A stretch of DNA of 64,000 bases, taken from Thiotrichaceae bacterium. GTDB lineage: Bacteria; Pseudomonadota; Gammaproteobacteria; Beggiatoales; Beggiatoaceae. The translations under genes were made by a program, and so were the position numbers. The stretch covers positions 1 to 64,000 of the forward strand of contig JAABRD010000019.1 of NCBI GenBank assembly GCA_011391085.1, read 5' to 3'. Below are positions 7,508 through 61,225 of this stretch, piece after piece. The first letter of the stretch is position 1; every line of letters begins with the position of its first letter. The notes beneath the pieces were generated by a model that was not told the origin of the DNA, did no database searches, and worked only from the letters and a program-made list of their open reading frames with translations.

Positions 7508-10500
7508 ATGGCACCCCAAGAATACCTCCGCCTCTTTGAACATACCCCTTCTGGAGTGGTCATCACCAACCTCCAAGGCCACCCGTTGGCCTTCAATCCT
7601 GCCTTCCCTAACCTACTTGGTTACTCGGCTTCTGATCTGGCCACGTTACTGGATTATGGCAAACTGTCCCTCGTTGACCCTTCGGACCTTCCTAATCCGC
7701 TGTTGCAAACGTCACAACAATTAAAAAAAGTCTATCTACATCACCATCAACACCCCGTGTATGCCAAACTGACTCTCTCATTGGTCAATGATGAGGATAA
7801 ACAACCGCGTTACTGGCTGATTTTCTTAGAAGATATTACAGCCTATAAAATTCGGGAGGGGGCCTTACAGCGCCGGGAAGAACGTTTTGATCTCGCGTTG
7901 CGTACCTGTAATGACGGTGTGTGGGATTGGGACCTGCAAACGCAACAAATCCACTTTTCTGCGGAATGGAAACATATTTTAGGGTATGCGATTCATGAAT
8001 TTAGCAATCAACGTTTGGTCTGGCAAAACTGTATTCATCCCGAAGACTTGCCTGGGGTGTTGCACGACTTGCAAACGCATTGGGATCATCTCACACCACG
8101 CTATGAAAGCGTCTATCGCATCCAACATAAAGAAGGAGATTATCGCTGGATTTTAGATCGTGGTGCGGCATTACGTGACCGGGATGGGACGCCCTATCGA
8201 ATGATCGGCACTTGTGTTGACATCACTTCTCATAAATATACTGAACAAGCCATTGAAAGTGCAAGAGACTATTTACATAATCTTATCAACGCGGTACCTA
8301 ACCCAATTTTTCTCAAGGACCGTGAACATCGGTGGTGCTTTTTCAATGATGCTTTTTGTGCCCTGTTAGGCTATTCGCGTCCACAACTGTTGGGAAAAAC
8401 GGCTACCGATGTGCTTCCAGTTGAACAAGCGGCCCGCTTCCATCAAAAAGACGATTTTCTGTTCACCACGGGACAAGAGGACACGGCGGAGGAGACGTTT
8501 ACAGATGCCCATCAGAACTTTCATACGGTGTTGACGAGACGGATTTTGTACACAGATCTCCAAGGTCGTCAATTTATTGTGGGCACGATTGTCGACATTA
8601 CCGAACGTAAACTCGCCCAAGAAGTCCTCCTTGCCCAAGAAGCCCAATATCGACATCTGTTACAATATGCTAACAGTATTATCTTACGTCTTGATCCCCA
8701 CGGTCAAATCACGTTTTTCAACGAATTTGCCGAAATTTTTTTTGGCTTCCCCGCTTCCGACATTTTAGGGCAGTACGCTATTGGTACAATTACCCCAGCC
8801 ACAGATAGCGAAGGTTTTGATCTGGTGCCGATAATAGAAAGTCTGCTACGTTATCCCCAGTACTACCCACATACCGAACATGAAAACGTGCGGCGTAACG
8901 GTGAACGAGTCTGGATTGCTTGGTCAAATAAACCCATTTATAATCCAGAAGGCCAATTACAAGAAGTGCTTTGCATTGGCAACGACATTACGCAACGCAA
9001 ACGTGCGGAAAAAGCCCTTCAGGAACGGGACCGTATTCTCCAAGGTGTCGCCCACGTCACTCAACATTTACTCACCAGTCTCAACTACACGCAAGCCATT
9101 GCTGACGCACTGAAAACGGTAGCGGACCTGATTCTGGTGCATCGCGTGTACATCTTTGAGAATGTGATACCGTCTGCCACTCAAGAACCGCTGATGAGTC
9201 ACCGCTTTGAATGGCATATGAAAAGTCAACACCTGTGGGTGAACCATCCCAAGCAACAACTGTTGCCTTATGGTATCTTTCTACCGCGCTGGTATCCACG
9301 ATTGGCGGCGGGAAAACCGATTGCGGGCTTGGTTTGCAACTTTCCTAAAGACGTGCGACGTGCCTTGGAACGTAAGAAAATCGTCTCGGTTCTCCTCGTT
9401 CCCATCTTCTTTGATAACTATTTTTGGGGATTCATTTGTGTTGAAGACGGTCAACAAAAACGGTCTTGGTCGGAACATGAACATTTTCTGTTAACGGCGA
9501 TTGGAGACAGTATTCGTGGGGCGATGGCCCGGCAACAGGCTGAATGCGCCCTTCAGCAAAGTGAAGCCAAATTTCGAACCATCATTGAAAATACCCGTGA
9601 CGGCATTCTGATCTTGGATCAAGCAGGTATCATTCAATTTGCTAATCCTGCGGCTGAACAACTTTACAAAGCGGCCCCTGGCAAGTTGGTTGATAAGCCG
9701 TTTGGGAATCCTTCGCTACCAGATAAAACCGAAGTATGTATCCCCGACTGGGCTGGCCATCATCATATTATGGAATTACAATTGGCCCAATGCCAATGGG
9801 AAGGACAGCCGGCCACTATCGTTTCTCTGCGCGACATCACGGCCCGCAAAAAGGTCGAAGAAGCGTTGCAAAAACAATTGGAACGGACTCGTCTGATTCT
9901 CGAAGGTTCTATGGATGGTTTCTATGTCACTAATCTCGCCGGCCACCTGCTGGAAGTCAACCCGGCTTTTGGGGCCATGTTGGGTTATCAAGCGTCAGAA
10001 CTTCTCTCCAAGAATGATGAGATGTTATGTTGTCAAGAAGCCCATGAATCTTTACAACATCAACGTTATCTGATTCGCGAACAAAAATGGGGTAGCTTTG
10101 AAATCAATTTGTTGAGTAAACATGGTGCCACGGTTATCGTTGACATCAGTAGCAATTTTGTTCAACAAGAGTCCGAAGGATTGTTCTTCAATTTTGTTCG
10201 CGACATCACGCGCCGCAAACAAGCTGAAACGAAACTTCTCGAGGCTAAAGAGACTGCGGAGGCGGCCAGCCGGGCCAAAAGCGAATTTTTGGCCACCATG
10301 AGTCACGAAATTCGCACTCCTATGAACGGCGTTATGGGGATGACGGAATTGTTGTTAAACACCTCCTTAGACTCTCAGCAACGCCAATATGTTGAGGCAG
10401 TTCGCCATTCTGGTAAAAATTTGTTGGCCCTGATTAAAGACATTTTAGATTTCTCCAAAATTGAGGCTGGAAAACTTTCCTTAGAACTCGTGGACTTCAA

Positions 10501-12409
10501 TCTGATTGAGGGAGTCGAAGAAGTGGTTAACTTATTTGCCCCGTCGGCTTATCAGAAAGGTTTGGAATTGTATTGCCAGTTGCCCACGGTGCCGTTGCGT
10601 TTATGGGGCGACCCAGGCCGGTTACAACAAGTTCTCAACAATCTTCTTAATAATGCTATCAAGTTCACTGAAACCGGTGAAATCATATTAAAAATCCGAA
10701 TCTTAGAAGAAACGTCGCAATTCTGCAAAATCTCTTTTGAAATCACCGATACGGGCATTGGCATTGATCCACAAACTCGTCATCGTCTGTTTCAACCATT
10801 TTCTCAAGCCGATAGTTCCACGACGCGCCGGTATGGGGGCACGGGTCTAGGTTTAGTCATTGTCCAACGCCTGGTTCATTTGATGAACGGCGATATTGGG
10901 TTCACCAGCACTCCTAAACAGGGTAGCCAGTTTTGGTTTACCTTATGTTTCAATAAAACTTTGAAAGAGGAGACCCTCGGTAGGGGTGACAACGGTTATC
11001 TTCCTATCAAACCTGACAGGCCTGTTAGACCTGTCAGGTTTAACCAGGAAAACTTCCAGGCTTTAAAGCAGTGGCGATTCCTGTTATTATCTCCTCATCA
11101 CACTTTGAGTCTCATCATTATTGAACAACTGCGACGTTGGGGACTCGATTGCCAGGTGGAAACCAATCTTGACCAAGGGATTCGTTGGTTACGTGCGGCT
11201 ATCAAGATAGGTGAACCTTATCCCATCACCTTTGTTGACCCCCTGATTTCACCAAATTTAGACGAGGCGGACCTTGTTCAGATTCTTAATCGCGAATTTC
11301 AATTTGCCAATCTGTCTCTAATTTTACTCTCTCGACCTGCCTTCAAAGCATTCTCCCTAGATAATCGCACCGTTGACCACTCTCCTGCGCCTGTGGTTGC
11401 CTATCACTTGACAAAGCCGGTGTTACCTTCCAAACTCTATGCGGCGTTGTCTTCTCTGCTGGACCAAGTGCAATCTCCTGTCTCAAGTGAAGATGCGATA
11501 ACTTCCAACGTTGCGAATCGCCCCCTTGAATTGACTGGGCGACGCATTCTCGTGGTGGAAGACAACCGACTCAATCAAGAAGTGATTCGCCAAATGTTGC
11601 TTCAATTAGGTTGTCAAATTCAGCTTGTGGAAAATGGTCAACAAGCCGTACAATTGTTTGACTCCCAAACCACCCACAAGTCTTCCAAACCGATCATGTT
11701 TGATTTAGTGTTAATGGATTGCTTCATGCCCGTCATGGATGGTTTTGAGGCCAGTCGGACGATTCGCGTCCGTGAAAGTCAACAGCCAGGAAAACCTCAT
11801 ATTCCGATTGTTGCCCTGACGGCGAATGCCCTGGAAGGTGACCGCGAACGTTGTCTAGCCAGTGGTATGGATGATTATTTAACCAAGCCGATTTCTTTAC
11901 GAAAATTACATGATACGCTGATTGTTTGGCTAGGTGAAAAAACTGAGAAGGTGGAACCAGCGATTTCCAGTCTGCCTGCCAAAAAGACTGAAAAAATTTC
12001 CAACGAGATAGAACGTTCTCAAAAAGACACGGTTACCTCCGTCAGTAACCTGTTGTCAGAACAACTGTTGGTGTTAGATGAACAAACGATTCATCATTTA
12101 CGTCAAGAATTGCGTGGACGGGGCGTGAACTGGTTAATTGACATATTTTTGACCGAACTTCCCAATTACTTAAACGCTATCATTGCGGCTTTGCAAGCCA
12201 AAGATTGTGAACAATTGTATATGGCAGCCCATAAACTCAAAGGGAGTGTTTCCAATTTAGGAGGCAAGCGATTGATGGCCCTTTGTGTTCAACTCGAAAC
12301 TCAGGCCCGGGCGGACGCCCTCGACCAAGCACACACTTTGGTTTATACTCAACTCTCACAAGAAAGCACTAAACTCAAGCTTGCCCTGGAGAATATCAAA
12401 AATGTTTAA
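7508..12409 (+). CDS. multi-PAS/GAF hybrid sensor histidine kinase with REC and HPt
   Basis: A 1633-aa cytoplasmic-looking hybrid kinase without transmembrane segments. Order: PAS (1-115), PAS-PAC (125-250, DGVWDWDLQTQQIHF), PAS (255-375), PAS (380-500), GAF (about 510-675), PAS (685-790), PAS (800-920), HisKA with MSHEIRTPMNG (His about 933), HATPase (N box NNLLNNAIKFTE, DTGIGID, GGTGLGL), a degenerate receiver-like region, a true receiver (phospho-acceptor Asp about 1404 in LVLMDCFMPVMDGF) and a C-terminal HPt (AAHKLKGS, His about 1575). It should run a full His-Asp-His phosphorelay. The next gene, a REC-GGDEF protein, overlaps by 8 bases and is the likely phosphate acceptor, linking this sensor to cyclic-di-GMP. 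A 33-base palindrome is inserted in frame at 11009-11041 between HATPase and the pseudo-receiver. The start is uncertain because of the C-tract upstream. Confidence 0.93.
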   Translation: MAPQEYLRLFEHTPSGVVITNLQGHPLAFNPAFPNLLGYSASDLATLLDYGKLSLVDPSDLPNPLLQTSQQLKKVYLHHHQHPVYAKLTLSLVNDEDKQPRYWLIFLEDITAYKIREGALQRREERFDLALRTCNDGVWDWDLQTQQIHFSAEWKHILGYAIHEFSNQRLVWQNCIHPEDLPGVLHDLQTHWDHLTPRYESVYRIQHKEGDYRWILDRGAALRDRDGTPYRMIGTCVDITSHKYTEQAIESARDYLHNLINAVPNPIFLKDREHRWCFFNDAFCALLGYSRPQLLGKTATDVLPVEQAARFHQKDDFLFTTGQEDTAEETFTDAHQNFHTVLTRRILYTDLQGRQFIVGTIVDITERKLAQEVLLAQEAQYRHLLQYANSIILRLDPHGQITFFNEFAEIFFGFPASDILGQYAIGTITPATDSEGFDLVPIIESLLRYPQYYPHTEHENVRRNGERVWIAWSNKPIYNPEGQLQEVLCIGNDITQRKRAEKALQERDRILQGVAHVTQHLLTSLNYTQAIADALKTVADLILVHRVYIFENVIPSATQEPLMSHRFEWHMKSQHLWVNHPKQQLLPYGIFLPRWYPRLAAGKPIAGLVCNFPKDVRRALERKKIVSVLLVPIFFDNYFWGFICVEDGQQKRSWSEHEHFLLTAIGDSIRGAMARQQAECALQQSEAKFRTIIENTRDGILILDQAGIIQFANPAAEQLYKAAPGKLVDKPFGNPSLPDKTEVCIPDWAGHHHIMELQLAQCQWEGQPATIVSLRDITARKKVEEALQKQLERTRLILEGSMDGFYVTNLAGHLLEVNPAFGAMLGYQASELLSKNDEMLCCQEAHESLQHQRYLIREQKWGSFEINLLSKHGATVIVDISSNFVQQESEGLFFNFVRDITRRKQAETKLLEAKETAEAASRAKSEFLATMSHEIRTPMNGVMGMTELLLNTSLDSQQRQYVEAVRHSGKNLLALIKDILDFSKIEAGKLSLELVDFNLIEGVEEVVNLFAPSAYQKGLELYCQLPTVPLRLWGDPGRLQQVLNNLLNNAIKFTETGEIILKIRILEETSQFCKISFEITDTGIGIDPQTRHRLFQPFSQADSSTTRRYGGTGLGLVIVQRLVHLMNGDIGFTSTPKQGSQFWFTLCFNKTLKEETLGRGDNGYLPIKPDRPVRPVRFNQENFQALKQWRFLLLSPHHTLSLIIIEQLRRWGLDCQVETNLDQGIRWLRAAIKIGEPYPITFVDPLISPNLDEADLVQILNREFQFANLSLILLSRPAFKAFSLDNRTVDHSPAPVVAYHLTKPVLPSKLYAALSSLLDQVQSPVSSEDAITSNVANRPLELTGRRILVVEDNRLNQEVIRQMLLQLGCQIQLVENGQQAVQLFDSQTTHKSSKPIMFDLVLMDCFMPVMDGFEASRTIRVRESQQPGKPHIPIVALTANALEGDRERCLASGMDDYLTKPISLRKLHDTLIVWLGEKTEKVEPAISSLPAKKTEKISNEIERSQKDTVTSVSNLLSEQLLVLDEQTIHHLRQELRGRGVNWLIDIFLTELPNYLNAIIAALQAKDCEQLYMAAHKLKGSVSNLGGKRLMALCVQLETQARADALDQAHTLVYTQLSQESTKLKLALENIKNV
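11009..11041. repeat. in-frame 33-bp AAACCTGACAGG palindrome inside kinase gene
   Basis: A 33-base near-perfect palindrome (AAACCTGACAGG ... CCTGTCAGGTTT) adds 11 residues (around KPDRPVRPVRF) to the linker after the ATPase domain. Members of the same family occur twice in frame in the reverse transcriptase ORF (20992-21024, 21046-21078) and between genes at about 51864-51894 and 52646-52678. Confidence 0.85.
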
Positions 12410-16966: not shown

Positions 16967-17003
16967 GCAGGTTTCCTAACCCTCGAAGGGTTAGGAAACC
17001 TTG
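16967..17003. repeat. CCTAACCCTCGAAGGGTTAGG palindrome after AAA-ATPase copy 1
   Basis: GGTTTCCTAACCCT-CGA-AGGGTTAGGAAACC, a 14-bp stem with a tiny loop. The same element follows copy 2 at 26081-26115. Related TTTCCTAAACCTCGAAGGTTTAGGAAA versions are at 50670-50743. It probably ends transcription of both copies. Confidence 0.72.
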
Positions 17004-20355: not shown

Positions 20356-23300
20356 TTGCAACGTGCCTATCGCTGGTTACAGGCCCAGCAACCGGGCGCC
20401 TTGCCACATTGGCACCATCTCAAATCGTCACTGCAAGAACAACTACTCAGCGGTGAATACTGCTTTCAGGTACTCACTCGTGTGACTCACACGAATGCCC
20501 GTGGCGAGACCGAAACCCTAGAGGTTTGGGACGCCCAAGACCAATTGGTCTTAAAAGCCATGAGTCTGGTGCTAACCGACCACCTGAATTTACCCCACCC
20601 CAACCCTCCCCGCACGCAGGGTGGGAGTGATTTCCCCCGTGTACGGGGGGCTAGGGGGGGCTTTCATCACCTAGAAGGACGCGGGGGTATTAAAGCCGCC
20701 GTTCGTCAAACCCGTGAGTATCTTGAGAATCACCCCGACAGTTGGGTGATGACCAGCGATGTCAAAGGCTATTATGCCCATATCGACCACTCCATTCTCT
20801 ATCAGCAATTTCAGAACCTAATCCCGCAAGAAAAATATCTGCTACGTTTGCTATGGCAGGCGGTTAAGCGCACGGTGTCTGATGGCGGGAATTATGAGGA
20901 CATCGAACGCGGGATTAGTTTGGGGTGCCCGTTGTCACCCTTGATGGCGGCCTTGTATCTGAAACCGTTGGATGACTTCTTTGATGGTGTTAAACCTGAC
21001 AGGTCTTCAAGACCTGTCAGGTTTGGGGAGGATTTAGACGCGGTTAAACCTGACAGGTCTTCGAGACCTGTCAGGTTTGGCAGTGAGTTCTTCTACGCCC
21101 GCTTCATGGATGAGTGGATAATCGTGGCGCCGACGCATTGGCGGTTGCGTGAGGCGGTGGCACAGAGTCATCTAATCTTAGAATCACTCAAACTTCGCCA
21201 AGCCCCCGATAACACGTTCATCGGTCGGGCGTCTCGTGGGTTTGACTTTCTGGGCTATCACTTGACACCCGCACAATTAACGGTGTCCAAGACCGCCCTG
21301 CAACGCCGTGATGCACGTCTTCACCAGCTTTATCTCCCTCTCCCCCTGGGAGAGGGCCGGGGTGAGGGGGAGTCGGTGTCACGCTGGCCGCGGTATCTCC
21401 CTCGCCCTCTGGGAGAGGGTCGGGGTGAGGGTAGCGATTTGACGGCAACGACGGAATTTAACCCGTCCCCCCGTCCACGCATTCCAAACAAACGACCGTT
21501 CGAAGCACAGTTCCTCGCGTTGGGGGCGGCTTCGGTTCTGAGTGCAGCGGCTTCGGAATCGCACGCGACAATTTGGTATGTAGATTTGTCGACGCCTGTC
21601 CAGATTGACCAGTGGAGTGATGACCTAGATTGTGACAATAAATCTGACATGGATGGTCTCAAAACATCAACGACCTCGAGCTCAGCGGCTATTTATTTTA
21701 ACCCGAAGGCGAGCGTTTCTGTCGGATGGAACGGGTCGGGGCAATGCGTAGGTGACGGCACCATTCAGTGGTCTGCGAATGGGTGTTTAGCGGGGTGGTA
21801 TACGTCTAATGTTGGACATGATGGATGGTCGAACCAGGGGCCCAAATGGCTTGCGTTCAAGGGGACCTCGGGAAATTACGGATTTGTACATGTGGAGGTT
21901 GATGCGTCTCAGTCATCCGGGGGTAATGTTACCGGGTGGGCTTATGATGACACCGGGGCATCTTTTAATAGTGTTCAGATACCCCCTGTTGCAAATACTC
22001 CCGATGGGTGCCCAGTTACGTCATCGCCTCAACCTCAATCTCAAACCCTCACCTTCACCCCACCCGCCAGTGCGACTGTTGGTGATACGCCTTTGACTTT
22101 GACGGCGACTGGCGGTGCCTCTGGCAATCCTGTGACCTTTGCCAGCACCACCCCGAACGTATGCACCGTCAATGGGACGACGTTAACTCCAGTCAGTGCG
22201 GGAACTTGCACGGTGACTGCCAACCAAGCTGGTAATGCGAATTACGACGCGGCGCCGACGGTGACACAAAATATCACGATCAACCCGGCCCCGCAGAAAG
22301 TGGAGAAGACCACTCCTAGCACCCCGTTACCACCAGAGTTGGGTCTCTTCCTCCAAACGGCAGGCAATGGCAATGGCACCGTAACTGGTGCTGGTAGTTA
22401 CCCTGTTGGCACCGCCATCACATTGGGTGCGACTCCCGATGCCAATTCGAACTTTGTAGGCTGGTCGCCCAACAGTTGTCAGACAGGCATGACGTTGACG
22501 GCCGATACGACTTGTGTGGCCACGTTTGAGAAGAAGACGCCTGCCACTCCGCCGTCTCCATCCACCACACCCCTGCCCCCCGAACTGGGTCTCTTCCTCC
22601 AAGTCGATGGCAGTGGCCAGGGCCGCGTGACGACTGACACGGGAATGTCTTGCCAGTCCAGTGATTGTCAAGAGAATCCAGCGGGCCAGTTGGTATGTAA
22701 CCCACAAGCCTGCACCCAAACCGTGAAAACCACTGCCACGGTAATTCTCACTCCCTACGCCGACCCCGATTCCATCTTCAGCAATTGGGGAGGTCACGAA
22801 GATTGTGTTGATGGTGAAGTGTTTATGAACAGTAGTAAGCTGTGCATTGCCTTTTTCCGTCGCCTTTACCCATTGACCGTCACCCTCCAAGGGCCCGGTC
22901 AAGTGCAAGGATTCGGATGGGACCAACAATCCATGGGGATTGACTGCGGAACTCAATGTGACGCGACCTACAGTGCCGGCACCACCGTTTATTTACAAGC
23001 CACGCCTGCCACAGGTCAAGACTTTCTAGGGTGGGGTGGAGATTGTGACGGCTGGCATAATCAGTTGGCGGTGAAAGTGACTCAGGAGATGACCTGCGAA
23101 GCACACTTCGGCTTGATAGAAGTGCTGCCGGCCGAGGTAACGCCACCGCAAACGCCGCCAGTGACACCACCGACCACGGGTGAGACCACGCCACCTGTCA
23201 CGGTGGAGATGACGGCCAACACACCACCTGTCACGGCGGAAACGACGGCCAATACGCCACCTGTCACGGCAGAGACGACGGCCAGCACACCACCTGTCAC

Positions 23301-24018
23301 AGCAGAGACGATGGACGGTACGCCACCTGTCACAGCAGAGACGATGGACGGTACGCCACCGGCGACCGAGACACCACCGACCGTCACCCCGATTGACACC
23401 ACCGCGGTGGTACCCCCAGTCGTCACGGCGACCGAGACCACCGTCACACCACCTACCACCGTCACACCACCCGCAACGGCGGTGGTGACACCTCCTCCCG
23501 TGATGACCATCCCACCCATGGTCGTCTCTGCTAATTTCGCCTGCGCCACCACCGGCAACATTGGTGAAGTTTGCAACTATGGTGGACGTGAAGTCACGAA
23601 CTTGAACGTGCAAGGGTCGGGCATCGTTTCCAATGGGGTGGTGTCGACCACCGTCGTCAATACGGGCTGGGTCTCCAACTTCACCATTACCGCCACTGGG
23701 AAACTGAGTGGTGGAATCGTCACCGGTTATATCAAATCTGACGGGGTGATGCTGGACTTTGAGTTCCGGGGCGCCGCCATTCTAGGCGGCACCGTGGGCG
23801 GCACCATTCTCAACACCAGCAAGGTCGGTGGTTACTTCCAAGATGTCACTTTGTTAGCCAATACCAAGATAACCGGTGGCATTCTCAAAGGGACGATTAA
23901 AGGAGATAAGAAGTCCCCGGCGGTGTTGGAGAAAGTGCGAGTGAAGAAGGGGAGTCAATTGTCTGGCGTGAAGTTAGGCAAGGGCGTCGTGTTAGAAAAA
24001 GGCGTCGTCGTAGAATAA
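20356..24018 (+). CDS. reverse transcriptase joined in frame to a large secreted repeat protein
   Basis: One open frame of 1220 codons from TTG 20356 (no usable start in frame; see the GACA tract upstream). Residues 1 to about 325 are an RT: DAQDQLVLKAMSLVL, HHLEGRGGIKAAVR, SDVKGYYAHIDH with catalytic Asp, ISLGCPLSPLMAALYL, and motif 5 as FMDEW where RTs have xxDD, then GFDFLGYHL. Four palindromic insertion zones interrupt it in frame. From about residue 375 the character changes: FLALGAASVLSAAASESHA resembles an export signal, followed by a beta domain, a bacterial Ig-like domain (about 560-645), three InlB-type repeats ending WxP..C/FLGWGGDCD (about 655-915), five 11-residue TPPVTAETTAN repeats and a C-terminal beta-helix-like tail rich in Gly and Val. 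Either a true fusion or two neighbouring genes joined after repeat-mediated deletion; expression as one protein is doubtful. Confidence 0.7.
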   Translation: MQRAYRWLQAQQPGALPHWHHLKSSLQEQLLSGEYCFQVLTRVTHTNARGETETLEVWDAQDQLVLKAMSLVLTDHLNLPHPNPPRTQGGSDFPRVRGARGGFHHLEGRGGIKAAVRQTREYLENHPDSWVMTSDVKGYYAHIDHSILYQQFQNLIPQEKYLLRLLWQAVKRTVSDGGNYEDIERGISLGCPLSPLMAALYLKPLDDFFDGVKPDRSSRPVRFGEDLDAVKPDRSSRPVRFGSEFFYARFMDEWIIVAPTHWRLREAVAQSHLILESLKLRQAPDNTFIGRASRGFDFLGYHLTPAQLTVSKTALQRRDARLHQLYLPLPLGEGRGEGESVSRWPRYLPRPLGEGRGEGSDLTATTEFNPSPRPRIPNKRPFEAQFLALGAASVLSAAASESHATIWYVDLSTPVQIDQWSDDLDCDNKSDMDGLKTSTTSSSAAIYFNPKASVSVGWNGSGQCVGDGTIQWSANGCLAGWYTSNVGHDGWSNQGPKWLAFKGTSGNYGFVHVEVDASQSSGGNVTGWAYDDTGASFNSVQIPPVANTPDGCPVTSSPQPQSQTLTFTPPASATVGDTPLTLTATGGASGNPVTFASTTPNVCTVNGTTLTPVSAGTCTVTANQAGNANYDAAPTVTQNITINPAPQKVEKTTPSTPLPPELGLFLQTAGNGNGTVTGAGSYPVGTAITLGATPDANSNFVGWSPNSCQTGMTLTADTTCVATFEKKTPATPPSPSTTPLPPELGLFLQVDGSGQGRVTTDTGMSCQSSDCQENPAGQLVCNPQACTQTVKTTATVILTPYADPDSIFSNWGGHEDCVDGEVFMNSSKLCIAFFRRLYPLTVTLQGPGQVQGFGWDQQSMGIDCGTQCDATYSAGTTVYLQATPATGQDFLGWGGDCDGWHNQLAVKVTQEMTCEAHFGLIEVLPAEVTPPQTPPVTPPTTGETTPPVTVEMTANTPPVTAETTANTPPVTAETTASTPPVTAETMDGTPPVTAETMDGTPPATETPPTVTPIDTTAVVPPVVTATETTVTPPTTVTPPATAVVTPPPVMTIPPMVVSANFACATTGNIGEVCNYGGREVTNLNVQGSGIVSNGVVSTTVVNTGWVSNFTITATGKLSGGIVTGYIKSDGVMLDFEFRGAAILGGTVGGTILNTSKVGGYFQDVTLLANTKITGGILKGTIKGDKKSPAVLEKVRVKKGSQLSGVKLGKGVVLEKGVVVE
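20594..20660. repeat. C-rich/G-rich repeat inserted in frame in RT
   Basis: CCCCACCCCAACCCTCCCCG ... GTACGGGGGGCTAGGGGGGG, the same sequence type as the interior of the MITEs at 14866 and 26140 but without their ends. It encodes about 22 extra residues (NPPRTQGGSDFPRVRGARGG) between LTDHLNLP and FHHLEGRGG, where members of this RT group, as I recall them, run straight through. Confidence 0.7.
20992..21078. repeat. two in-frame AAACCTGACAGG palindromes in RT (54-base period)
   Basis: Palindromes at 20992-21024 and 21046-21078, 54 bases apart, each giving VKPDRSSRPVRFG. They lie between RT motif 4 and the catalytic FMDE motif. The palindrome and a spacer appear to have duplicated as a unit. 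Confidence 0.85.
21334..21431. repeat. two CCCTCTGGGAGAGGG repeats at the RT/secreted-protein junction
   Basis: CTCCCTCTCCCCCTGGGAGAGGG ... at 21334-21371 and ctccctcgccctctgggagagggt ... at 21396-21431, encoding LPLPLGEGRGEGE and LPRPLGEGRGEGS. The same family is at 31485-31582. Its position exactly where RT homology ends supports repeat-mediated joining. Confidence 0.8.
23188..23352 (+). repeat. five tandem 33-bp repeats encoding TPPVTAETTAN
   Basis: Five in-frame 33-base units (acgccacctgtcacggcaga + gacgacggccaac type) encode 11-residue Thr/Pro-rich repeats, with a partial sixth unit. Third-position differences between units show some age. Typical of an extended cell-surface stalk; copy number may vary between strains. 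Confidence 0.88.
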
Positions 24019-24045
24019 GGCCTGAGTAATGGTTATGGGTTTTGG

Positions 24046-24121
24046 AGTACGGAATTTATTCCGCTTGGAACGGAATAAATTCCGTACTCCAACGGCGAAC
24101 GGAATAAATTCCGTACTCCAA
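24046..24121. repeat. GGAATAAATTCCGTACTCCAAC repeats
   Basis: Three units of the GGAATAAATTCCGTACTCC family, one inverted (ggagtacggaatttattcc). Larger arrays are at 33877-34052 and a short pair at 35823-35852. Confidence 0.8.
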
Positions 24122-24197
24122 AACCGATTTGAGGGAGGTATAGTACAAGTATAGAGGACTATAAGGAGTCCAAGACCTGTCTTGGACTCCAACATAT

Positions 24198-24259: not shown

Positions 24260-26092
24260 ATGAAATTTCCCTACGGCATCAGCCAGTTTGACAAAATCAT
24301 TACCAACCACTATTTTTATATCGACCGCACCGACCGGATTCCACTGCTGGAAGACGCGGGCGAACACTTGCTATTCTTGCGTCCCCGCCGCTTTGGTAAA
24401 AGTCTGTTACTGTCCATGTTAGAAAACTACTATGACGTGGCCAAAGCGTCTCAGTTTGAGTCCCTGTTTGGGCACTTAGCCATTGGCAAGAACCCGACGT
24501 CCAAGCACAATCAGTATTTTGTGATGAAATGGGATTTTTCCAGAGTGGAGCCTTACACTAATCTTACCGACCTCCGTCAAGCGGTACACCGACATCTCAA
24601 TGACCGCATTCAAGCGGTCGTCACCAAATATCAAGCGTGGTTGCCACCGATCATCCAAATTTATCCAGACTACGCGCTGTCCTCGTTTGAGTCTCTGCTG
24701 GCCGCGGTTCAACAAACCCCCTACCAACTCTATCTCCTCATCGACGAATACGACAACTTTGCCAATAACGTGTTAATGAGTCAAGGTCCAACGGGTTCGT
24801 CACGTTATCAAGAATTGGTGACGGGAGAGGGGCTGTTGAAAACGGTCTTCAATGCGGTCAAAGCGGCCAGTGCCGGGTGTGGCTTAGATAAAGTGTTTAT
24901 CACAGGAGTCTCGCCGTTGGTGATGAGTGACATGACGTCGGGTTACAATGTGGCCAAAAATATTTATTTGGAACCCGAGTTAAATGACCTGTGCGGCTTT
25001 AGTGACGCGGAAGTGGCGGCTACGGTGGCACAATTGGTGACCGATTGCCAACTCCCTGCCACCCGGACCGCAGAAGTCGTGTCATTGATGCAAACATTTT
25101 ACAACGGTTATCGGTTTTGTCGTCGCGAGAAGAAGGCCCTCGTTTACAACCCGACCTTGGCCCTGTATTTCTGGGATTCTTTCCAAAAATCGTGTCAGTC
25201 TCCAGAGGAAATGTTAGACAATAACTTAGCGATGGACAAAAACAAACTGGCTTATATTGCATCGTTACCACTGGGTACTCCCGTGATTTCTGAAGCCCTC
25301 TTAGGCACAGAACCGTTGCTGATTCCAACTTTATCCAGCCGGTTTAATCTAACGGACCTTCTCAAACCAAATCCCGACCGCAGTTTTATGGTCTCCCTCC
25401 TCTATTATTTCGGAGTGTTAACCCTGGCCGGTCAAACTCCCTTGCATGAGTTATTATTCACCATTCCCAATTTGGTGATTCGCAAATTGTATGTCGAACA
25501 ACTGCACGAATCACTGATTCCCGCCGATAGCACCCGTGAGACGAATCGTCAAGTTGCCCGCCAATTTTATCGGAACGGCGACTTGCAACCGGTGTGTGAG
25601 TTACTTGAACAAAGTTACTTCCCGGTGTTTGATAATCGTGACTACCGGTGGGCCGACGAATTGACGGTCAAGATGGCCTTTGTCATGTTATTGTTTGATG
25701 ACTTGTTGTATGTCATGGACTCGGAAACCAAGATTGGACGGGGCTATGGGGATTTGACTTTGATCATTCGTTCGGATTTACGCCAAGCCCCGTTATGGGA
25801 CATCGTGTTCGAATTGAAATATATCAAACTCAAAAAGGAAGGGAAGCTGACCGCGGCGGCGGTGAAAACCAAATCCACAGAGGAACTCAAGGTGTTGCCC
25901 GCCGTCAAAGACCAATTCGTGGCGGCCCGGGCGCAATTGCAACGGTATCGGGAGATTTTAGAACAAGAATATCCGGGCGTCTTGCGGTTACGAACGTATG
26001 CCGTCGTAGCGGTGGGATTAGAACGGCTGGTGTGGGAAGAGGTTCTGCCACCTGGAAACTCAGGAAAACCAGCCGATACGCAGGTTTCCTAA
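24260..26092 (+). CDS. AAA-ATPase-like / PD-(D/E)XK nuclease protein, copy 2
   Basis: A 610-aa paralogue of 15144-16952 with the same signature start (FPYGISQFDKIITNHYFYID), GKS-containing P-loop region, LYLLIDEYDNF Walker B and the C-terminal WDIVFELKYIKLKK nuclease block. The N-terminal third and C-terminal half are almost unchanged, while residues about 230-330 have diverged (for example KNIYLEPELNDLCGFSDAEV against VNIYLRAEFNDLCGFREEEL). That mosaic suggests either gene conversion of the ends or selection for a different target-recognition segment. Eight extra C-terminal residues come from read-in to the downstream palindrome. Function is unproven; mobile or defence roles are possible. 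Confidence 0.9.
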   Translation: MKFPYGISQFDKIITNHYFYIDRTDRIPLLEDAGEHLLFLRPRRFGKSLLLSMLENYYDVAKASQFESLFGHLAIGKNPTSKHNQYFVMKWDFSRVEPYTNLTDLRQAVHRHLNDRIQAVVTKYQAWLPPIIQIYPDYALSSFESLLAAVQQTPYQLYLLIDEYDNFANNVLMSQGPTGSSRYQELVTGEGLLKTVFNAVKAASAGCGLDKVFITGVSPLVMSDMTSGYNVAKNIYLEPELNDLCGFSDAEVAATVAQLVTDCQLPATRTAEVVSLMQTFYNGYRFCRREKKALVYNPTLALYFWDSFQKSCQSPEEMLDNNLAMDKNKLAYIASLPLGTPVISEALLGTEPLLIPTLSSRFNLTDLLKPNPDRSFMVSLLYYFGVLTLAGQTPLHELLFTIPNLVIRKLYVEQLHESLIPADSTRETNRQVARQFYRNGDLQPVCELLEQSYFPVFDNRDYRWADELTVKMAFVMLLFDDLLYVMDSETKIGRGYGDLTLIIRSDLRQAPLWDIVFELKYIKLKKEGKLTAAAVKTKSTEELKVLPAVKDQFVAARAQLQRYREILEQEYPGVLRLRTYAVVAVGLERLVWEEVLPPGNSGKPADTQVS

Positions 26093-31293: not shown

Positions 31294-31326
31294 AGATTTG
31301 ACAACTTTTCAAAAGTTGTCAAATCT
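31294..31326. terminator. GATTTGACAACTTTTCAAAAGTTGTCAAATC palindrome
   Basis: A near-perfect 14-bp stem immediately after the GTPase stop. The same palindrome follows or separates genes at 58039-58080 and 60690-60720. Position suggests a transcription terminator, but no T-run follows. Confidence 0.5.
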
Positions 31327-33876: not shown

Positions 33877-34052
33877 TTTGGAGTATGGGTTTTGGAGTAC
33901 GGAATTTATTCCGTTGGAATCCGGAATTTGTTCCACCTGAAACGGAATAAATTCCGTACTCCAACGGAATAAATTCCGTACTCCAACGGAATAAATTCCG
34001 TACTCCAACGGAATAAATTCCGTACTCCAACGGAATAAATTCCGGACTCCAA
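33877..34052. repeat. tandem array of 22-bp AACGGAATAAATTCCGTACTCC units
   Basis: After inverted and degenerate units (33877-33935), at least five direct 22-base copies run without spacers to about 34052. Each unit holds the palindrome GGAATAAATTCC. Between pbpC and rdgB, which point the same way. Confidence 0.9.
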
Positions 34053-46365: not shown

Positions 46366-46424
46366 ATTGTGTTTCACCTTAATTGTAGAAATGAGTTGTT
46401 GGTTGTGAATTGTCGGTCGCCTAG

Positions 46425-49384: not shown

Positions 49385-49454
49385 AAAACTGAGTTTCTGT
49401 GGTGCCAAAACCTTTGCGAAGAAACTCAGTTTCTTAAAGAAACTGAGTTTCTGT
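49385..49454. repeat. GAAACTGAGTTTCTG repeat cluster
   Basis: Three to four alternating GAAACTGAGTTTC units with GTGGTGCC spacers, in the gap between the CHAT gene and its upstream neighbour. Confidence 0.8.
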
Positions 49455-50669: not shown

Positions 50670-50743
50670 CTCAAAGGTTTAGGAAAGTTGCCTGGCGATT
50701 CCCCTTTAACTTTCCTAAACCTCGAAGGTTTAGGAAAGTTGCA
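50670..50743. repeat. TTTCCTAAACCTCGAAGGTTTAGGAAA palindromes
   Basis: Partial and full copies of the palindrome, ending just after the stop of the interrupted DUF5615 gene. Related to the palindromes after the AAA-ATPase copies and to about 51810-51848. Confidence 0.75.
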
Positions 50744-51809: not shown

Positions 51810-51895
51810 TTTAACTTTCCTAAACCTCGAAGGTGGAGGCAAAGTTGCATGGTGTCTGCCAAACCTGACAAGTTTTCAAAATCTGTCAGGTTTGC
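51810..51895. repeat. mixed repeat: TTTCCTAAACCTCGAAGG and AAACCTGACA palindromes
   Basis: A partial AACTTTCCTAAACCTCGAAGG unit (51810-51848) followed by aaacctgacaagttttcaaa-atctgtcaggttt (51864-51894). Noncoding gap between the DUF433 and YoeB genes. Confidence 0.72.
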
Positions 51896-51921: not shown

Positions 51922-52185
51922 CTAATCACCATAATGATGGCGTGCTTGTGCGATAATAATTTTCTCATTGTCAAATTGATAAACGAGACGATGTTGCTGA
52001 TTGATTCGACGTGACCAATATCCTGACCAATCATGTTTCAGTGGCTTTGGTTTGCCTATACCGGTTTGTGGAGTCACACGAATTTGTTCTATCATACGCT
52101 TGATTTTTTGATAAGTTGGGTCGTCCTGCCGACGCCAATAAGCCAAATCTTCCAGTGCCACTGGAGTGAGTTGTAGTTTTCTCAT
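51922..52185 (-). CDS. yoeB: YoeB-family mRNA interferase toxin
   Basis: An 87-aa Txe/YoeB toxin: LTPVALEDLAYWRRQDDPTY, IKRMIEQIRVTP, GIGKPKPLKHDWSGYWSRRI, NQQHRLVYQF and the C-terminal ARHHYGD with the catalytic His and Tyr. All expected blocks (Glu, Arg, His) are present, so it should be active. YoeB cuts mRNA at the ribosomal A site. Its ATG overlaps the antitoxin stop by four bases. The length equals the family norm. Confidence 0.93.
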   Translation of the reverse strand: MRKLQLTPVALEDLAYWRRQDDPTYQKIKRMIEQIRVTPQTGIGKPKPLKHDWSGYWSRRINQQHRLVYQFDNEKIIIAQARHHYGD

Positions 52186-52493
52186 GTCAGGAGTTCGTCT
52201 AAATCGTTGACATGTTCGATTTCAATTAATTGTCCAGCCGCGATTTGTTGTTTAGCCAGCTGGAGTCGGGCCACATTTGCAGGCGAAGACAGTAAATAAG
52301 TCGTTTCATCTAGCAGGTTTTCATTGAATTCTTCCTCTGCTTCAGAATCGGAATCGTCGAATCGTCGAAACTGCAATGTTTGTCCTTCTAACAACGTCGT
52401 AACCCGGTCCCCCTCCCGCAATTGGAGACGTGCCATTAAGGCCATGGGGAGGGCAATGATGTGGTCTTGAGAAAGGCTGACGAGAAAAGACAT
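52182..52493 (-). CDS. antitoxin with AbrB/MazE-like N-terminus and YefM-like C-terminus
   Basis: A 103-aa protein. ATG 52493 is chosen (GAGGT eight bases upstream); the open frame to 52664 lacks any such support. Residues 1-45 (SLSQDHIIALPMALMARLQL, then REGDRVTTLL) look like an AbrB/MazE swapped-hairpin DNA-binding domain. An acidic linker (DDSDSEAEEEFNENL) leads to YLLSSPANVARLQLAKQQI and a C-terminal EIEHVNDLDELL, which match the toxin-binding end of YefM/Phd antitoxins. The normal Phd fold at the N-terminus is absent. It partners YoeB, with ATGA overlap. Confidence 0.8.
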   Translation of the reverse strand: MSFLVSLSQDHIIALPMALMARLQLREGDRVTTLLEGQTLQFRRFDDSDSEAEEEFNENLLDETTYLLSSPANVARLQLAKQQIAAGQLIEIEHVNDLDELLT

Positions 52494-52645
52494 ATCATAC
52501 CTCAAAAGTGGGTGGTAAGTAAACTTGAATTGACTTCTATACAAAGGGTAAAGAAGGATGATACCACAGTTATTTATTATTTGCCAGTTAAACCAGAGAT
52601 AGGTTTTGTTCATAATGAGTGGCGAAAAACTCCTCAATATCAACC

Positions 52646-52678
52646 AGACCTGACAAGTTTTCAAAATCTGTCAGGTCT
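52646..52678. repeat. GACCTGACAAGTTTTCAAAATCTGTCAGGTC palindrome
   Basis: A 33-base member of the AAACCTGACAGG palindrome family, placed between the FHA-like gene end and the YoeB antitoxin leader. Confidence 0.78.
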
Positions 52679-52707: not shown

Positions 52708-55700
52708 TTACCACAACTGTTCCCCCATCACATCCCTCACCGACCCCGCCCGTAAATCAGTTGGAGTTTCGGATACACCACCGCGGCCTGTTGGCACGAA
52801 GCTATTGCGTTTCTCCTTGTCAAGGAGTTGTTCAACGGTGCAATGTTTTTTGATGATTTCGTAGTTTTGGAGGGTGGCGGGTAGGATGGTTAAGGTGGCA
52901 CCCAAGTTATTGGGTGTTGTGCTAATCCTGATTTTTCCTGATTTTTCCAAGTTATCTGACGAAGCATCTAAAAAATTTCTTCTATCGATAGAAACCATCG
53001 TAATACTTTGATTAGTGCCAGGCTTTACGTTGGCCAAAAAACGTCCAGAGGAAGCTAAAAAGTGTTTGGAGTTGATGTTAATATTTCCACCAGAACCGCC
53101 TTTTGCGCCGCTCATGATCGATGCACCATCTAATACTACAAATACAGGGGTTTGAATAGTGATGTTACCACCATCACCATTGCTATTATTTCCTTCTACA
53201 AGTGTAGAGATACTACCTTCTCGCAAGTATAGCAAATTAGGTGTTATTATTGTAATATCTCCACCTGTAGCGTTGTTAAATGCTGATGTAGAAATTCTAC
53301 TGTTGTCGGTTATGTTTATCGTGTTAGCTTGTATTTCAATTTTCCCCGCATTACCTGAGTTAGAGTCTTTGCCTAATGAATTACACAAAATAGCACTATT
53401 CTCCGAACCGGCATTATCAGTATGAGCAGAAACACCACTGCTCTGACCGGAAGATTGATTCTCCCCAGAGATTGTTAAAGTATCACTCACTATAGCAATA
53501 GTACCACCCGCCCCAGAACTCCTTGTAGAACTGGAAATTATTGCACCATCTGTTAAGATGATTTGGCGAGCCCCGATTTTAATATCGCCACTCTTACCAT
53601 TACCAAAAGCTCCTTCAGAATTAGTAGAAATGTGGCTACTATAACCTGATTTAGACTCTCCTGATGCTACCAACGTATCAGCTATTATAGTAATAGTACC
53701 AGCTTCTCCATTACTGTAGGTACTGCTGCTAATTCCTCCCCCTGCTGTTAGGACGATTTGGACAGCACCTATCGTAATATTTCCACCATTCCCTTTCTGT
53801 GAATTAGCATCTTTGCTGACAGAATTGCTATAAATGCCACTATTTAATTCTGCTGGTTTATCACCACCAGAAATTGTCAAAGTATCAGCTAATATGGTGA
53901 TGTTGCCACCATTTCTAGCAGTTACTGTAGAACTAGCAATTTGTGCCTCATCCATCAAATTAATTTGGTGAGATTCTATCTCAATATTTCCACCTTTACC
54001 GGCATTAGTGTCAGTGTTTGTTGAATGACTAAGGATGCTACTGCTATCACCCTTTTTATTTTTCCCTGAGAGCGTCAAGGTACCAGATTTAATCACGATA
54101 CTGCCAATTTCTCCAGTTCCATAAGATTGACTACTATCAATCTGTGCTCCGTTCTTTAAGATGATTTGGCCAGCCTCTATACGAATATGTCCACCGTTAC
54201 TCCAAATACTACTGACATCCCCACCTTCAGTATTTTCTCCTGAAACCGTCAGCGTATCAGCCACCTGAAGAACAATATTACCACCTTCCTTAGATCTTGT
54301 GATACCGCTAATTTTTGCGCCTTCTGCCAAGGTGATTTGACGAGATTCTATCTCAATCTTACCTGGTTGTTTACTATTTTCCGCAACGGTAGCCGTTGCA
54401 ATATCACTTTCTAATGCTGTTAGGGTATCTGCTCCTTTAATGATAATACTTCCTCCTTCAGCATTTCCAGAAGCATCAATAGAAGCTTTTTCTAATGTGA
54501 TTTGCCGTGCTTCTATCTTAATCTCACCGGCTTTTCCAGGGTTGCTTTGTGTACTTGTGGAAACACTAAAAATTCCAGTAAGATCATTTATCTTTTCGCC
54601 ATGTATAGTTAAAGTATCAGCCTTAATGCTAATACTACCAGCGTTTCCACTTCCGATCGTACTACTACTAATGTTTGCTCGATTCGTTAAGCTGATTTGA
54701 GGACTCTCTATTTCAATGCGTCCTGCGTTGCCTGCATTGATTTCTTCGCTTAGTGAATCACTAGAAATACCACTGGAAATCCCTAATTTATTAGAAATTC
54801 CTGAAATAGTTAGTGATTCACCCACTTTGAGAATAATGGTACCGCTGTCGTTTTTACTAGGTGTACTGTTATCAATTAGAGCTCCGTCCATCAAATTAAT
54901 TTGACGAGCCTCTATCTCGATACGTCCAGCAGCATTATTAGCATTTTCTACTAGATCAATCCAAATAGCGCTACCACCTAATTTGCCTTCTCCTGATAAA
55001 TTCAGGCTACCGACAACTTTGATAGAAATATTACCTCCTGATTGAGTAGATATTCTGGCACCATCTTTCAATTCTATTTGGTTAGCTTTTATTTCAATGT
55101 TCCCTCTTTTACCTATGTTATCTTCAGCCCCTACTGATTTAATACTACTACCGTTACCATCATTAGTTTTTCCAGTAAGAATTAAGGTGCCAGCCACTTT
55201 GAGGATGATATTACCGCTTTCTCCAGTCCCAACTGTAAAACTTAAAATTGTTCCATCCCTTAGTGTTATTTGGCCAGCTTCTATTTCAATATTTCCCGCT
55301 CTGCCTACTCCAGTTGTGAAATTGCTAAGGCTTGTTCCATTCGTCAGAGTCATATTATCGACCTGAATGTTTACTACACCACTGTTTTTATCACTGTGCG
55401 TGAGACTACCTATAACAGTATTAGCTGCTTCAAAGCGCCCCCCTCGAATGAAGATACCACCTCCATCTTGGCTGGCTATTCTGGTGTTATTGACCGTAAT
55501 TTGCCCACCTTGTGCAGCAGCACTCAGATTTAATCCAACATCGGTTGGAGTAATTTCACCACGCGAGGCAATACTGGCAAGATTAATTCGGCCATATTGA
55601 TATAAGTCTGAACTATATGTTGGTATACCTTCCGCATCATAAACGGGCGGTTCCCCATCTATGTGTATGTTGCCCCCAATCAACGACAACGTCCTCCCCT

Positions 55701-56244
55701 CTGACACCGACAATTTACTATCTTGCAACCTAATCTCCCCCATCTCCTCTGTCAAAAACCCAAACGCCGTCACCGGCGCCACCGTCAACAAACTATTACC
55801 TGGCGTCCGCGCCTCAAACCTCCCCCCATCTTGCAATCGCAAATAATCCGCCGTACTGACATGAAAACCGCCTTGCACATCCAACTTAGCATTCGGTCCA
55901 AACATAACGCCATACGGGTTCAGAAAATACATATCCGCATTAGGAATCGTTGACCGTAACGTGCCATCAATGCTAGACGGATTCCCGCCCGTGACGCGGC
56001 TGATGACATTTTGGACATTGGCGGGACCACTAAAGGTTGCACTTTCGTGACTTTGCAGATTGAAGTCACCAAAACTATGAAACAAATTGCCACCGTGTTG
56101 TTGGCCCAAGTCGGCGCCAATTTGATAATTGGGCCCAGCGAGGGCACCGCTTTTGCCAAGAGTGCCGTCTAGGATGATTTGGGCGTGGGCGGTGAAAGTG
56201 AGGCAAAGTAAGAGAGTCAAGAGGGGGAGTGGATAGCGTGGCAT
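52708..56244 (-). CDS. filamentous-haemagglutinin-like (two-partner secretion) exoprotein
   Basis: A 1178-aa protein with a signal peptide (YPLPLLTLLLCLTFTAHA) and a TPS domain: DGTLGKSGALAGPNYQIGAD, GNLFHSFGDFNLQ, SATFSGPANVQNVISRVTGG, SSIDGTLRS, NADMYFLNPYGVMFGPNAKL. The rest is a long series of beta-helix repeats alternating 'GNIEIEARQITL.DGA.ISS' and 'SGTI.I.ADTLTISGE' strands. It should be exported through an outer-membrane TpsB transporter and form a surface fibre; no tpsB gene is in the window. An AAGGAG site precedes the ATG. Located between CHAT and CHASE2 genes on the same strand, it is a candidate partner or substrate of the CHAT protease. Confidence 0.93.
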   Translation of the reverse strand: MPRYPLPLLTLLLCLTFTAHAQIILDGTLGKSGALAGPNYQIGADLGQQHGGNLFHSFGDFNLQSHESATFSGPANVQNVISRVTGGNPSSIDGTLRSTIPNADMYFLNPYGVMFGPNAKLDVQGGFHVSTADYLRLQDGGRFEARTPGNSLLTVAPVTAFGFLTEEMGEIRLQDSKLSVSEGRTLSLIGGNIHIDGEPPVYDAEGIPTYSSDLYQYGRINLASIASRGEITPTDVGLNLSAAAQGGQITVNNTRIASQDGGGIFIRGGRFEAANTVIGSLTHSDKNSGVVNIQVDNMTLTNGTSLSNFTTGVGRAGNIEIEAGQITLRDGTILSFTVGTGESGNIILKVAGTLILTGKTNDGNGSSIKSVGAEDNIGKRGNIEIKANQIELKDGARISTQSGGNISIKVVGSLNLSGEGKLGGSAIWIDLVENANNAAGRIEIEARQINLMDGALIDNSTPSKNDSGTIILKVGESLTISGISNKLGISSGISSDSLSEEINAGNAGRIEIESPQISLTNRANISSSTIGSGNAGSISIKADTLTIHGEKINDLTGIFSVSTSTQSNPGKAGEIKIEARQITLEKASIDASGNAEGGSIIIKGADTLTALESDIATATVAENSKQPGKIEIESRQITLAEGAKISGITRSKEGGNIVLQVADTLTVSGENTEGGDVSSIWSNGGHIRIEAGQIILKNGAQIDSSQSYGTGEIGSIVIKSGTLTLSGKNKKGDSSSILSHSTNTDTNAGKGGNIEIESHQINLMDEAQIASSTVTARNGGNITILADTLTISGGDKPAELNSGIYSNSVSKDANSQKGNGGNITIGAVQIVLTAGGGISSSTYSNGEAGTITIIADTLVASGESKSGYSSHISTNSEGAFGNGKSGDIKIGARQIILTDGAIISSSTRSSGAGGTIAIVSDTLTISGENQSSGQSSGVSAHTDNAGSENSAILCNSLGKDSNSGNAGKIEIQANTINITDNSRISTSAFNNATGGDITIITPNLLYLREGSISTLVEGNNSNGDGGNITIQTPVFVVLDGASIMSGAKGGSGGNININSKHFLASSGRFLANVKPGTNQSITMVSIDRRNFLDASSDNLEKSGKIRISTTPNNLGATLTILPATLQNYEIIKKHCTVEQLLDKEKRNSFVPTGRGGVSETPTDLRAGSVRDVMGEQLW

Positions 56245-58038: not shown

Positions 58039-58080
58039 TTGTTCAAGATTTGACAACTTTTCCAAAGTTGTCAAATCTCA
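58039..58080. repeat. GATTTGACAACTTT palindrome
   Basis: gatttgacaacttttccaaagttgtcaaatct, with an extra ttcaagatttgttcaagattt prefix. Same family as 31294-31326 and 60690-60720. Confidence 0.75.

Positions 58081-59663: not shown

Positions 59664-61225
<1,562 letters not shown>

Follow-up and report, generated by a model that had tools for sequence, protein, structure and literature searches.

An in-frame palindrome within the gene of a hybrid histidine kinase raises the question of where the palindrome came from and how the gene came to carry it. The window in this study was a 64,000-nucleotide stretch of contig JAABRD010000019.1 from a Thiotrichaceae bacterium. The preliminary description had placed a 33-base palindrome in frame within a 1633-aa kinase. 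This position was exact: the first base of the repeat fell on a codon boundary, the repeat filled codons 1168–1178, and the ORF was open throughout. The palindrome was AAACCTGACAGGCCT-GTT-AGACCTGTCAGGTTT, in which 15-bp arms with a single non-pair (position 13/21) enclose a 3-nt loop. The 33-mer folded as RNA on its own gave −18.8 kcal/mol (z −5.5), and none of 200 shuffles was as good. The features of the window are listed in Table 1.

Table 1. Coordinates of the kinase gene, the copies of the 33-bp repeat, and the sister hairpins in the window.
Feature	Position	Strand	Details
PAS/GAF hybrid histidine kinase, 1633 aa, repeat host	7508..12409	+	ORF without internal stop; Pfam; relatives
33-bp palindromic repeat copy	11009..11041	.	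in frame, residues 1168–1178, KPDRPVRPVRF
Second copy, RT-like ORF	20992..21024	.	in frame, KPDRSSRPVRF; pattern match and translation
Third copy, same RT-like ORF	21046..21078	.	21 bases beyond second copy, KPDRSSRPVRF
Diverged copy, 4 mismatches to consensus	51861..51893	.	outside all ORFs of at least 120 aa
Diverged copy, AGACC...GGTCT subtype	52646..52678	.	29 bp past 3' end of ORF 52708–56244 (−)
Sister 33-bp hairpin AGGTTTCCTAACCCT-CGA-AGGGTTAGGAAACCT	16969..17001	.	16 bp past ORF end
Sister 33-bp hairpin AGATTTGACAACTTT-TCA-AAAGTTGTCAAATCT	31294..31326	.	7 bp past ORF end
Sister 33-bp hairpin AGAAACTCAGTTTCT-TAA-AGAAACTGAGTTTCT	49420..49452	.	
Sister 33-bp hairpin AACTTTCCTAAACCT-CGA-AGGTTTAGGAAAGTT	50708..50740	.	

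The domain order of the kinase was HisKA, HATPase_c, a degenerate receiver-like region, receiver, and Hpt. Pfam placed HisKA at 923–988, HATPase_c at 1034–1147, the receiver at 1347–1470, and Hpt at 1543–1630. The catalytic motifs had been called intact, and the translation could be read through each of them (H, N, G1, G2, receiver-D, and Hpt-H). The repeat had also been placed between the HATPase domain and a pseudo-receiver. The first boundary held, with HATPase_c ending at residue 1147. For the second, a Pfam search of the kinase ORF gave no match in the proposed pseudo-receiver that follows the repeat; this region looks like a degenerate receiver, judged from DYNMPAMSGL at the corresponding position of the homologue L023 and from the alpha/beta pattern in the predicted structure. 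The AlphaFold model of the kinase fragment, built with 8 aligned sequences, had a mean pLDDT of 75.4. The repeat corresponded to positions 273–283 of the fragment, and pLDDT was below 50 at 260–282, between two better-predicted domains. In the model, the 11 residues of the repeat look like an addition to a linker that appears floppy, with the reading frame kept.

The repeat was dispersed. The 12-mer AAACCTGACAGG matched the window 8 times (at most one mismatch), and these matches were both arms of four palindromes; the number expected by chance was 0.29, and 8 was reached by 0/100 shuffles. The 5.77-Mb genome (140 contigs) held the repeat at 103 places with at most two mismatches, and the same pattern read backwards at none. 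A purine/pyrimidine pattern gave 98 matches, and 97 copies were studied after C53:189385 was dropped as unlike the rest. The counts of 103 and 97 follow different rules and are not nested, and the purine/pyrimidine pattern misses the copies with the most transversions. The peptide in the kinase had been described as nearly equal to the insertions in the RT, and 9 of 11 residues agreed between KPDRPVRPVRF and KPDRSSRPVRF. Two copies in the window touched smaller ORFs: a 106-aa ORF of uncertain standing spans the copy at 51861, and the copy at 52646 overlaps the start of a 160-aa ORF (52182–52664, −).

Of the 35 other genomes from this bacterial family, 22 carried the repeat at one mismatch or fewer, at 1 to 428 places each, and 13 had no copy. 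At the same threshold, it was missing from all 21 genomes that represented other families of the class and from all 397 of a phylum sample, which had drawn no other genome of this bacterial family; three genomes were common to both samples. The centre was lineage-specific: the bases around the loop were mostly TCT-NNN-AGA here and TTT-NNN-AAA in most copies of the relatives, among the matches listed. Plasmids gave no match to the 33-bp repeat, and two viral contigs carried it. The arm sequence was found in no paper, and no description of the repeat was found among the papers listed in the literature search, several lists being the top of longer ones.

The sequence could in principle be the kinase's own linker, palindromic by chance. 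The linker from the HATPase end to the next strand, with anchors picked by eye, was 46 aa in the window kinase and 20, 24, 24, 24, 26, 27, and 28 aa in seven linker-keeping homologues (L021, L023–L027, and L050). Homologue L022 was left out of this count, as it lacks the whole receiver-like region. The inserted peptide was absent from all eight aligned homologues, L022 included. An unrelated linker of equal length in relatives, proposed beforehand as the sign of an ancestral linker, was thus not seen. Equal length would not have proved an ancestral linker, because the stretch that the repeat occupies in CoaX, and also in PurL of the relative genome G003, is about equally long in relatives. The excess of the window kinase was 18–26 aa, of which the repeat covers only 11, and this is the one point in favor of an ancestral linker. 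The same 33-base unit at 103 places and the repeat-free linkers of the seven homologues led to rejection of this explanation, which is practically out of the question. The exact 33-base empty site predicted for kinase orthologues was not found among the homologues; those keeping the linker were 43–56% identical to the window kinase in the linker part. The closest named relative (L050) came from a Thiomargarita MAG, with 54% identity in the best segment; Thiomargarita is assigned to the Beggiatoaceae in PMC4853749.

Copies within genes were examined across the genome. Seventeen of the 97 copies lay within 15 ORFs of at least 190 aa, compared with 364 of 568 control positions 600–1000 bases away and 76% of 3000 random window positions. 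The repeat is therefore strongly depleted in long ORFs. With non-overlapping ORFs of at least 120 aa, the number was 19. One genic copy (L066) lies so close to the start of its ORF that the actual gene may not include it. The 17 copies used two frames, 5 and 12 times, a split for which no significance is claimed; the third frame was empty because it holds TGA and the ORFs were drawn stop-free. Two very different peptides, KPDRSxRPVRF and NLTGLxDLSGL, occurred in unrelated proteins. Ten of the 15 host ORFs were searched against NCBIfam, and the names obtained included phosphoribosylformylglycinamidine synthase, FeoB, type III pantothenate kinase, a cobyrinate-type a,c-diamide synthase, and NRPS and PKS proteins.

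The host proteins were aligned to relatives. The PurL peptide was absent from 20/20 aligned relatives, which did not include the partial match L150 or the G003 fragments; for 19 of the 20, the gap was 15 aa, not 11. The FeoB peptide was absent from all 14 rows, which were the main FeoB matches among 29 other loci, and the gap was mostly 10 aa. The CoaX alignment took in 18 of the 19 other loci, and row L176, a wrong ORF, was excluded; the peptide was absent from all 17 usable rows, most of which had about equally many residues of their own there. Genome G003 carried NLTGFKNLSGL in frame in PurL at a different site, with no net lengthening relative to most rows. Both aligned RT relatives (L210 and L211) lacked the repeat. 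Several conserved genes that are unrelated to one another (PurL, FeoB, CoaX, kinase, and RT) thus carry the palindrome in frame, and it is absent from relatives at the same sites. Judged from these alignments, the palindrome can take the place of linker sequence, or a subsequent deletion can offset it.

The suggestion that a living gene tolerates a dispersed palindrome was supported, where "living" stands for an open frame and conserved domains and the gene is accordingly only apparently so. Tolerance was shown better by PurL, FeoB, and CoaX, which were aligned to relatives, and by the CobB-type synthase, identified by its NCBIfam name and outside the orthologue alignment, than by the kinase alone. 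Selection for the inserted peptide as a useful linker would agree with the location of the repeat, which lies where several conserved proteins are variable and in the low-confidence loop of the kinase model. The depletion in long ORFs and the occurrence of two very different peptides in unrelated proteins speak against such selection, which is very improbable.

In another explanation, the hairpin is kept for a function, either in RNA or as a binding site for protein (terminator, mRNA end, or protein site), and the genic copies are accidental. Outside ORFs, a flanking ORF end was within 50 bp in 26/73 cases for 3' ends and 6/65 for 5' ends, with medians of 90 and 181. The arms stayed paired. 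Pair 2/32 was A-T in 83 and G-C in 13 of the 97 copies, and pair 14/20 was C-G in 75 and T-A in 14. Over the stem pairs of all copies, 28 were changed on both sides yet paired, 33 were mismatches, and 23 were wobble pairs, counted as sequences and not as events. The bias toward 3' ends, the strong hairpin, and the stem-preserving changes fit a function. The 13 same-family relatives without a copy do not, a terminator inside a gene would truncate it, and Rfam gave no match in the window at gathering scores. A functional origin is therefore considered unlikely.

The extent of the mobile unit was also considered. The 33-mer may be only the central part of a mobile unit that is about 44 bp long or has outer arms of the GGTAGTGATGCACAAGGTAGTG type, and the kinase would then have received a larger or truncated form. 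A 22-bp outer repeat was within 70 bp of 17 of the 97 copies. The paralogue pair at L122, the only informative one within the genome and the only informative case when joined flanks were compared with the available DNA in search of empty sites, differed by 44 bp including the repeat, not by 33. The kinase linker excess is greater than 11 aa, and the left flank of the kinase copy scored best against copies with the outer repeat; this match was not significant, being reached by 66/200 shuffles, and 80 of the 97 copies had no outer repeat within 70 bp. A larger unit is accordingly an improbable source of the kinase copy. The very small mobile repeats of cyanobacteria are likewise very short, dispersed, and nested in other repeats.

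C before and A after the palindrome, or the reverse complement, occurred in 54/97 copies, and because of these asymmetric ends, the mobile unit may extend slightly past the palindrome. Flanking direct repeats were not above shuffles (k = 2, 6 against a mean of 6.06; k = 3, 1 against 1.41), and no target-site duplication, as in a MITE, exceeded the shuffle level. Empty copies of the outer repeat (gap of 0–30 bases, exact stems) were not present in the same genome. No empty site was found in 12 stretches of G027 and 8 of G003, two species of one genus, which overlapped little and were mostly 66–87% identical. Part of the copy number is passive and is due to the outer repeats and a toxin-antitoxin array. 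Copies in this array have long flanks in common, and one has lost 18 bases, one arm plus the loop. The array at C57 was also inspected by eye as a possible integron attC, and this reading was dropped.

These observations led to the following reading. The element is, with a probability of about 0.7, a copy of a very small non-autonomous REP-like mobile repeat that has multiplied within one family, probably the Beggiatoaceae. It is near-identical at many unrelated places, aligned relatives of the host genes lack it at the same sites, its arms stay paired, and its copies are mostly outside long ORFs and there nearer the 3' ends of ORFs. Copies would spread by DNA copying to new sites, perhaps through the action of a transposase or repair enzyme, with its gene elsewhere, on a single-stranded hairpin. 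Most insertions in genes would be purged, and the survivors would be in one of the two stop-free frames and in flexible linkers. Since 33 bp are 11 codons, the reading frame is kept. In the kinase, the insert would be a probably disordered, basic peptide rich in Pro and Arg that separates the HATPase domain from the receiver-like region, and it is probably close to neutral. Against this reading, the repeat appears from the alignments to replace rather than lengthen the sequence in CoaX and G003 PurL, which simple insertion does not predict. The missing exact empty site, the differences of 44 bp at L122 and 15 aa in PurL, the flanking repeats at shuffle level, the lone Y1_Tnp match with no copy around it, the passive share of the copies, and the 13 copy-free relatives of the same family also count against it.

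The repeat was compared with known systems. In Rickettsia and in some REP-rich genomes, palindromes within protein-coding sequence are known (PMC10969869, PMC3733652). The Rickettsia palindromic elements (RPE) resemble the present repeat in being palindromes in frame in unrelated, apparently functional protein-coding genes (PMC10969869, PMC3733652), and differ in bacterial group and in a length of about 150 bp, as given in the review, versus 33 bp (PMC10969869). RPE-4 and RPE-6 are equated with short CGTC-tagged repeats (PMC3733652). CGTC was within 4, 8, and 12 nt of an end in 2, 5, and 10 of the 97 copies, with 1, 3, and 5 in the control; it was slightly above control yet far from the conserved tag of a CGTC REP (RPE-4/6). 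GTAG was within the same distances in 0, 5, and 20 of 97 copies, with 1, 19, and 21 in control windows 20 nt out. The genome had one Y1_Tnp match (30 bits, cut-off 23), and no core-like sequence was found in 3288 bases around it. An origin from a RAYT was thus unsupported, the sole Y1_Tnp match having no adjoining copy. Neither the end tag nor the repeat-flanked Y1 (RAYT) transposase of GTAG REPs and REPINs was present. As the tags and the RAYT linkage failed, the repeat was not filed under the GTAG or CGTC families.

In other respects, the repeat resembles GTAG and CGTC REPs: PMC3733652 describes palindromes of 20–40 bp, mostly intergenic near gene 3' ends, with several families per genome and some copies within genes. 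Stems are 5–13 bp for GTAG and 8–9 bp for CGTC REPs (PMC3733652, Table 1), versus 15 bp with a 3-nt loop here. PARCEL repeats are also coding repeats with dyad symmetry and are thought to be mobilised (PMC2996958). They form tandem arrays of 25-residue units (PMC2996958), while the present 11-residue unit is single in the kinase, occurs twice in the RT 21 bases apart, and is found in unrelated proteins. Candidatus Thiomargarita nelsonii, of the same probable family, has many palindromic repeats, some interrupting genes (PMC4853749). Its hupL MITE, with 10-bp direct and 19-bp inverted repeats, is unlike the 33-bp repeat (PMC4853749); other repeats of this organism may overlap the 33-bp family.

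The window was scanned for all hairpins with arms of at least 11 and at most one mismatch, and hairpins of the same size with other arms were found. Of the 16 that had a 3-nt loop, 12 had arms of 15 bp, 3 of these belonging to the main family and 9 having other arms; one shuffled window gave zero hairpins with a 3-nt loop. In 456 kb of the genome with the main family excluded, 15-bp arms occurred in 33/71 hairpins with a 3-nt loop versus 2/44 with a 4-nt loop; this sample was non-random, mostly from around main-family copies, and some of its hairpins may be parts of longer repeats. The arm AGATTTGACAACTTT has a TGACA centre in common with the main family and recurs at 58046 and 60688. Hairpins similar to AGAAACTCAGTTTCT-TAA-AGAAACTGAGTTTCT were at 46423 and 57025, each with one non-pair. 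A further copy of AGGTTTCCTAACCCT-CGA-AGGGTTAGGAAACCT at 26082 overlaps the stop codon of ORF 24260–26092. Plasmids gave two partial matches (E 0.3 and 0.9) to one sister hairpin, and viral contigs gave none for two sister arms.

The 15-3-15 geometry spans at least five dissimilar arms, AAACCTGACAGGTCT, AGAAACTNAGTTTCT, AGGACTGSCAGTCCT, AGGTTTCCTAACCCT, and AGGGATAACACCCCT, together with AGATTTGACAACTTT, which is alike only in its TGACA centre. The genome may thus host a class of mobile hairpins set by shape (15-bp arms, 3-nt loop, 33 bp) and not by sequence. All these hairpins would be multiplied by a single machinery that reads structure, stem-preserving drift would make new families, and 11-residue linkers would be fed into proteins, sometimes replacing sequence. 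This proposal is speculative. The 15-3 hairpins in the stretches of relatives were mostly of the main family (7/7 in G027 and 8/9 in G003), and because of this and of the TGACA in AGATTTGACAACTTT, there is evidence against a general shape class.

The repeat works like intragenic REP and RPE repeats. The core idea is not new, because intragenic palindromes are already described in the review PMC10969869 and the REP paper PMC3733652. The present family occurs in probably free-living sulfur bacteria, inside genes for purine, iron, and coenzyme functions, and provides natural insertions for studying how linkers are taken up by proteins. The geometry common to dissimilar arms makes a copying enzyme guided by structure a testable claim.

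At L122, two paralogous stretches (107-214 versus 1503) were compared, one with the main hairpin repeat and one without it; they differed by 44 bp. The purL gene of G003, a genome from another genus, carried the repeat at a site different from the purL site in the genome of the window. The repeat-encoded peptide was present in this PurL, and the net length of the protein was not increased.

The flanks of 97 studied copies of the main hairpin in the genome of the window were also analyzed. A longer, outer inverted repeat, GGTAGTGATGCACAAGGTAGTG, flanked the hairpin and lay within 70 bp of it in 17 copies, including 7 with the outer repeat on both sides. Sister hairpins with the same geometry were found at nine positions in the window. 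Several of these were located at most 40 bp beyond the end of an ORF, one overlapped a stop codon, and the one at 60688 was located in the interior of an ORF.

A second repeat with coding potential, giving peptides of the PxPPRxxGG / GEGRGEG type, was observed in PurL of L129 and L109 (residues about 635-668) and in the RT-like ORF of the window (residues about 75-105). The PurL stretch matched 45 further places in the genome of the window (E up to 0.001), and the stretch from the RT-like ORF also had many matching places there.

In the toxin gene array, the genes were spaced by a repeated unit containing the main hairpin, with copies about 600-900 bp apart, an arrangement that is cassette-like.

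Coordinates of repeats and repeat-bearing loci
Feature	Location	Details
RT-like ORF	window 20356-24018	single ORF; RT-like domain, InlB-type (Flg_new_2) repeats, several inserted repeats
GGTAGTGATGCACAAGGTAGTG around main hairpin	L010, L062, L077, L089, L090, L100, L121 and others	
Further long inverted repeats	window 24035-24128, 33892-33986	based on TTGGAGTACGGAATTTATTCCG
Sister hairpins	window 16969, 26082, 31294, 46423, 49420, 50708, 57025, 58046, 60688	33 bp, 15-3-15; arms differ from main family
In-frame main repeat in PurL	L135 (G003), about 1463-1495	peptide NLTGFKNLSGL
Toxin gene array	L074 (G000 C57:33800-40500), L075	PIN and ParE toxin-type genes
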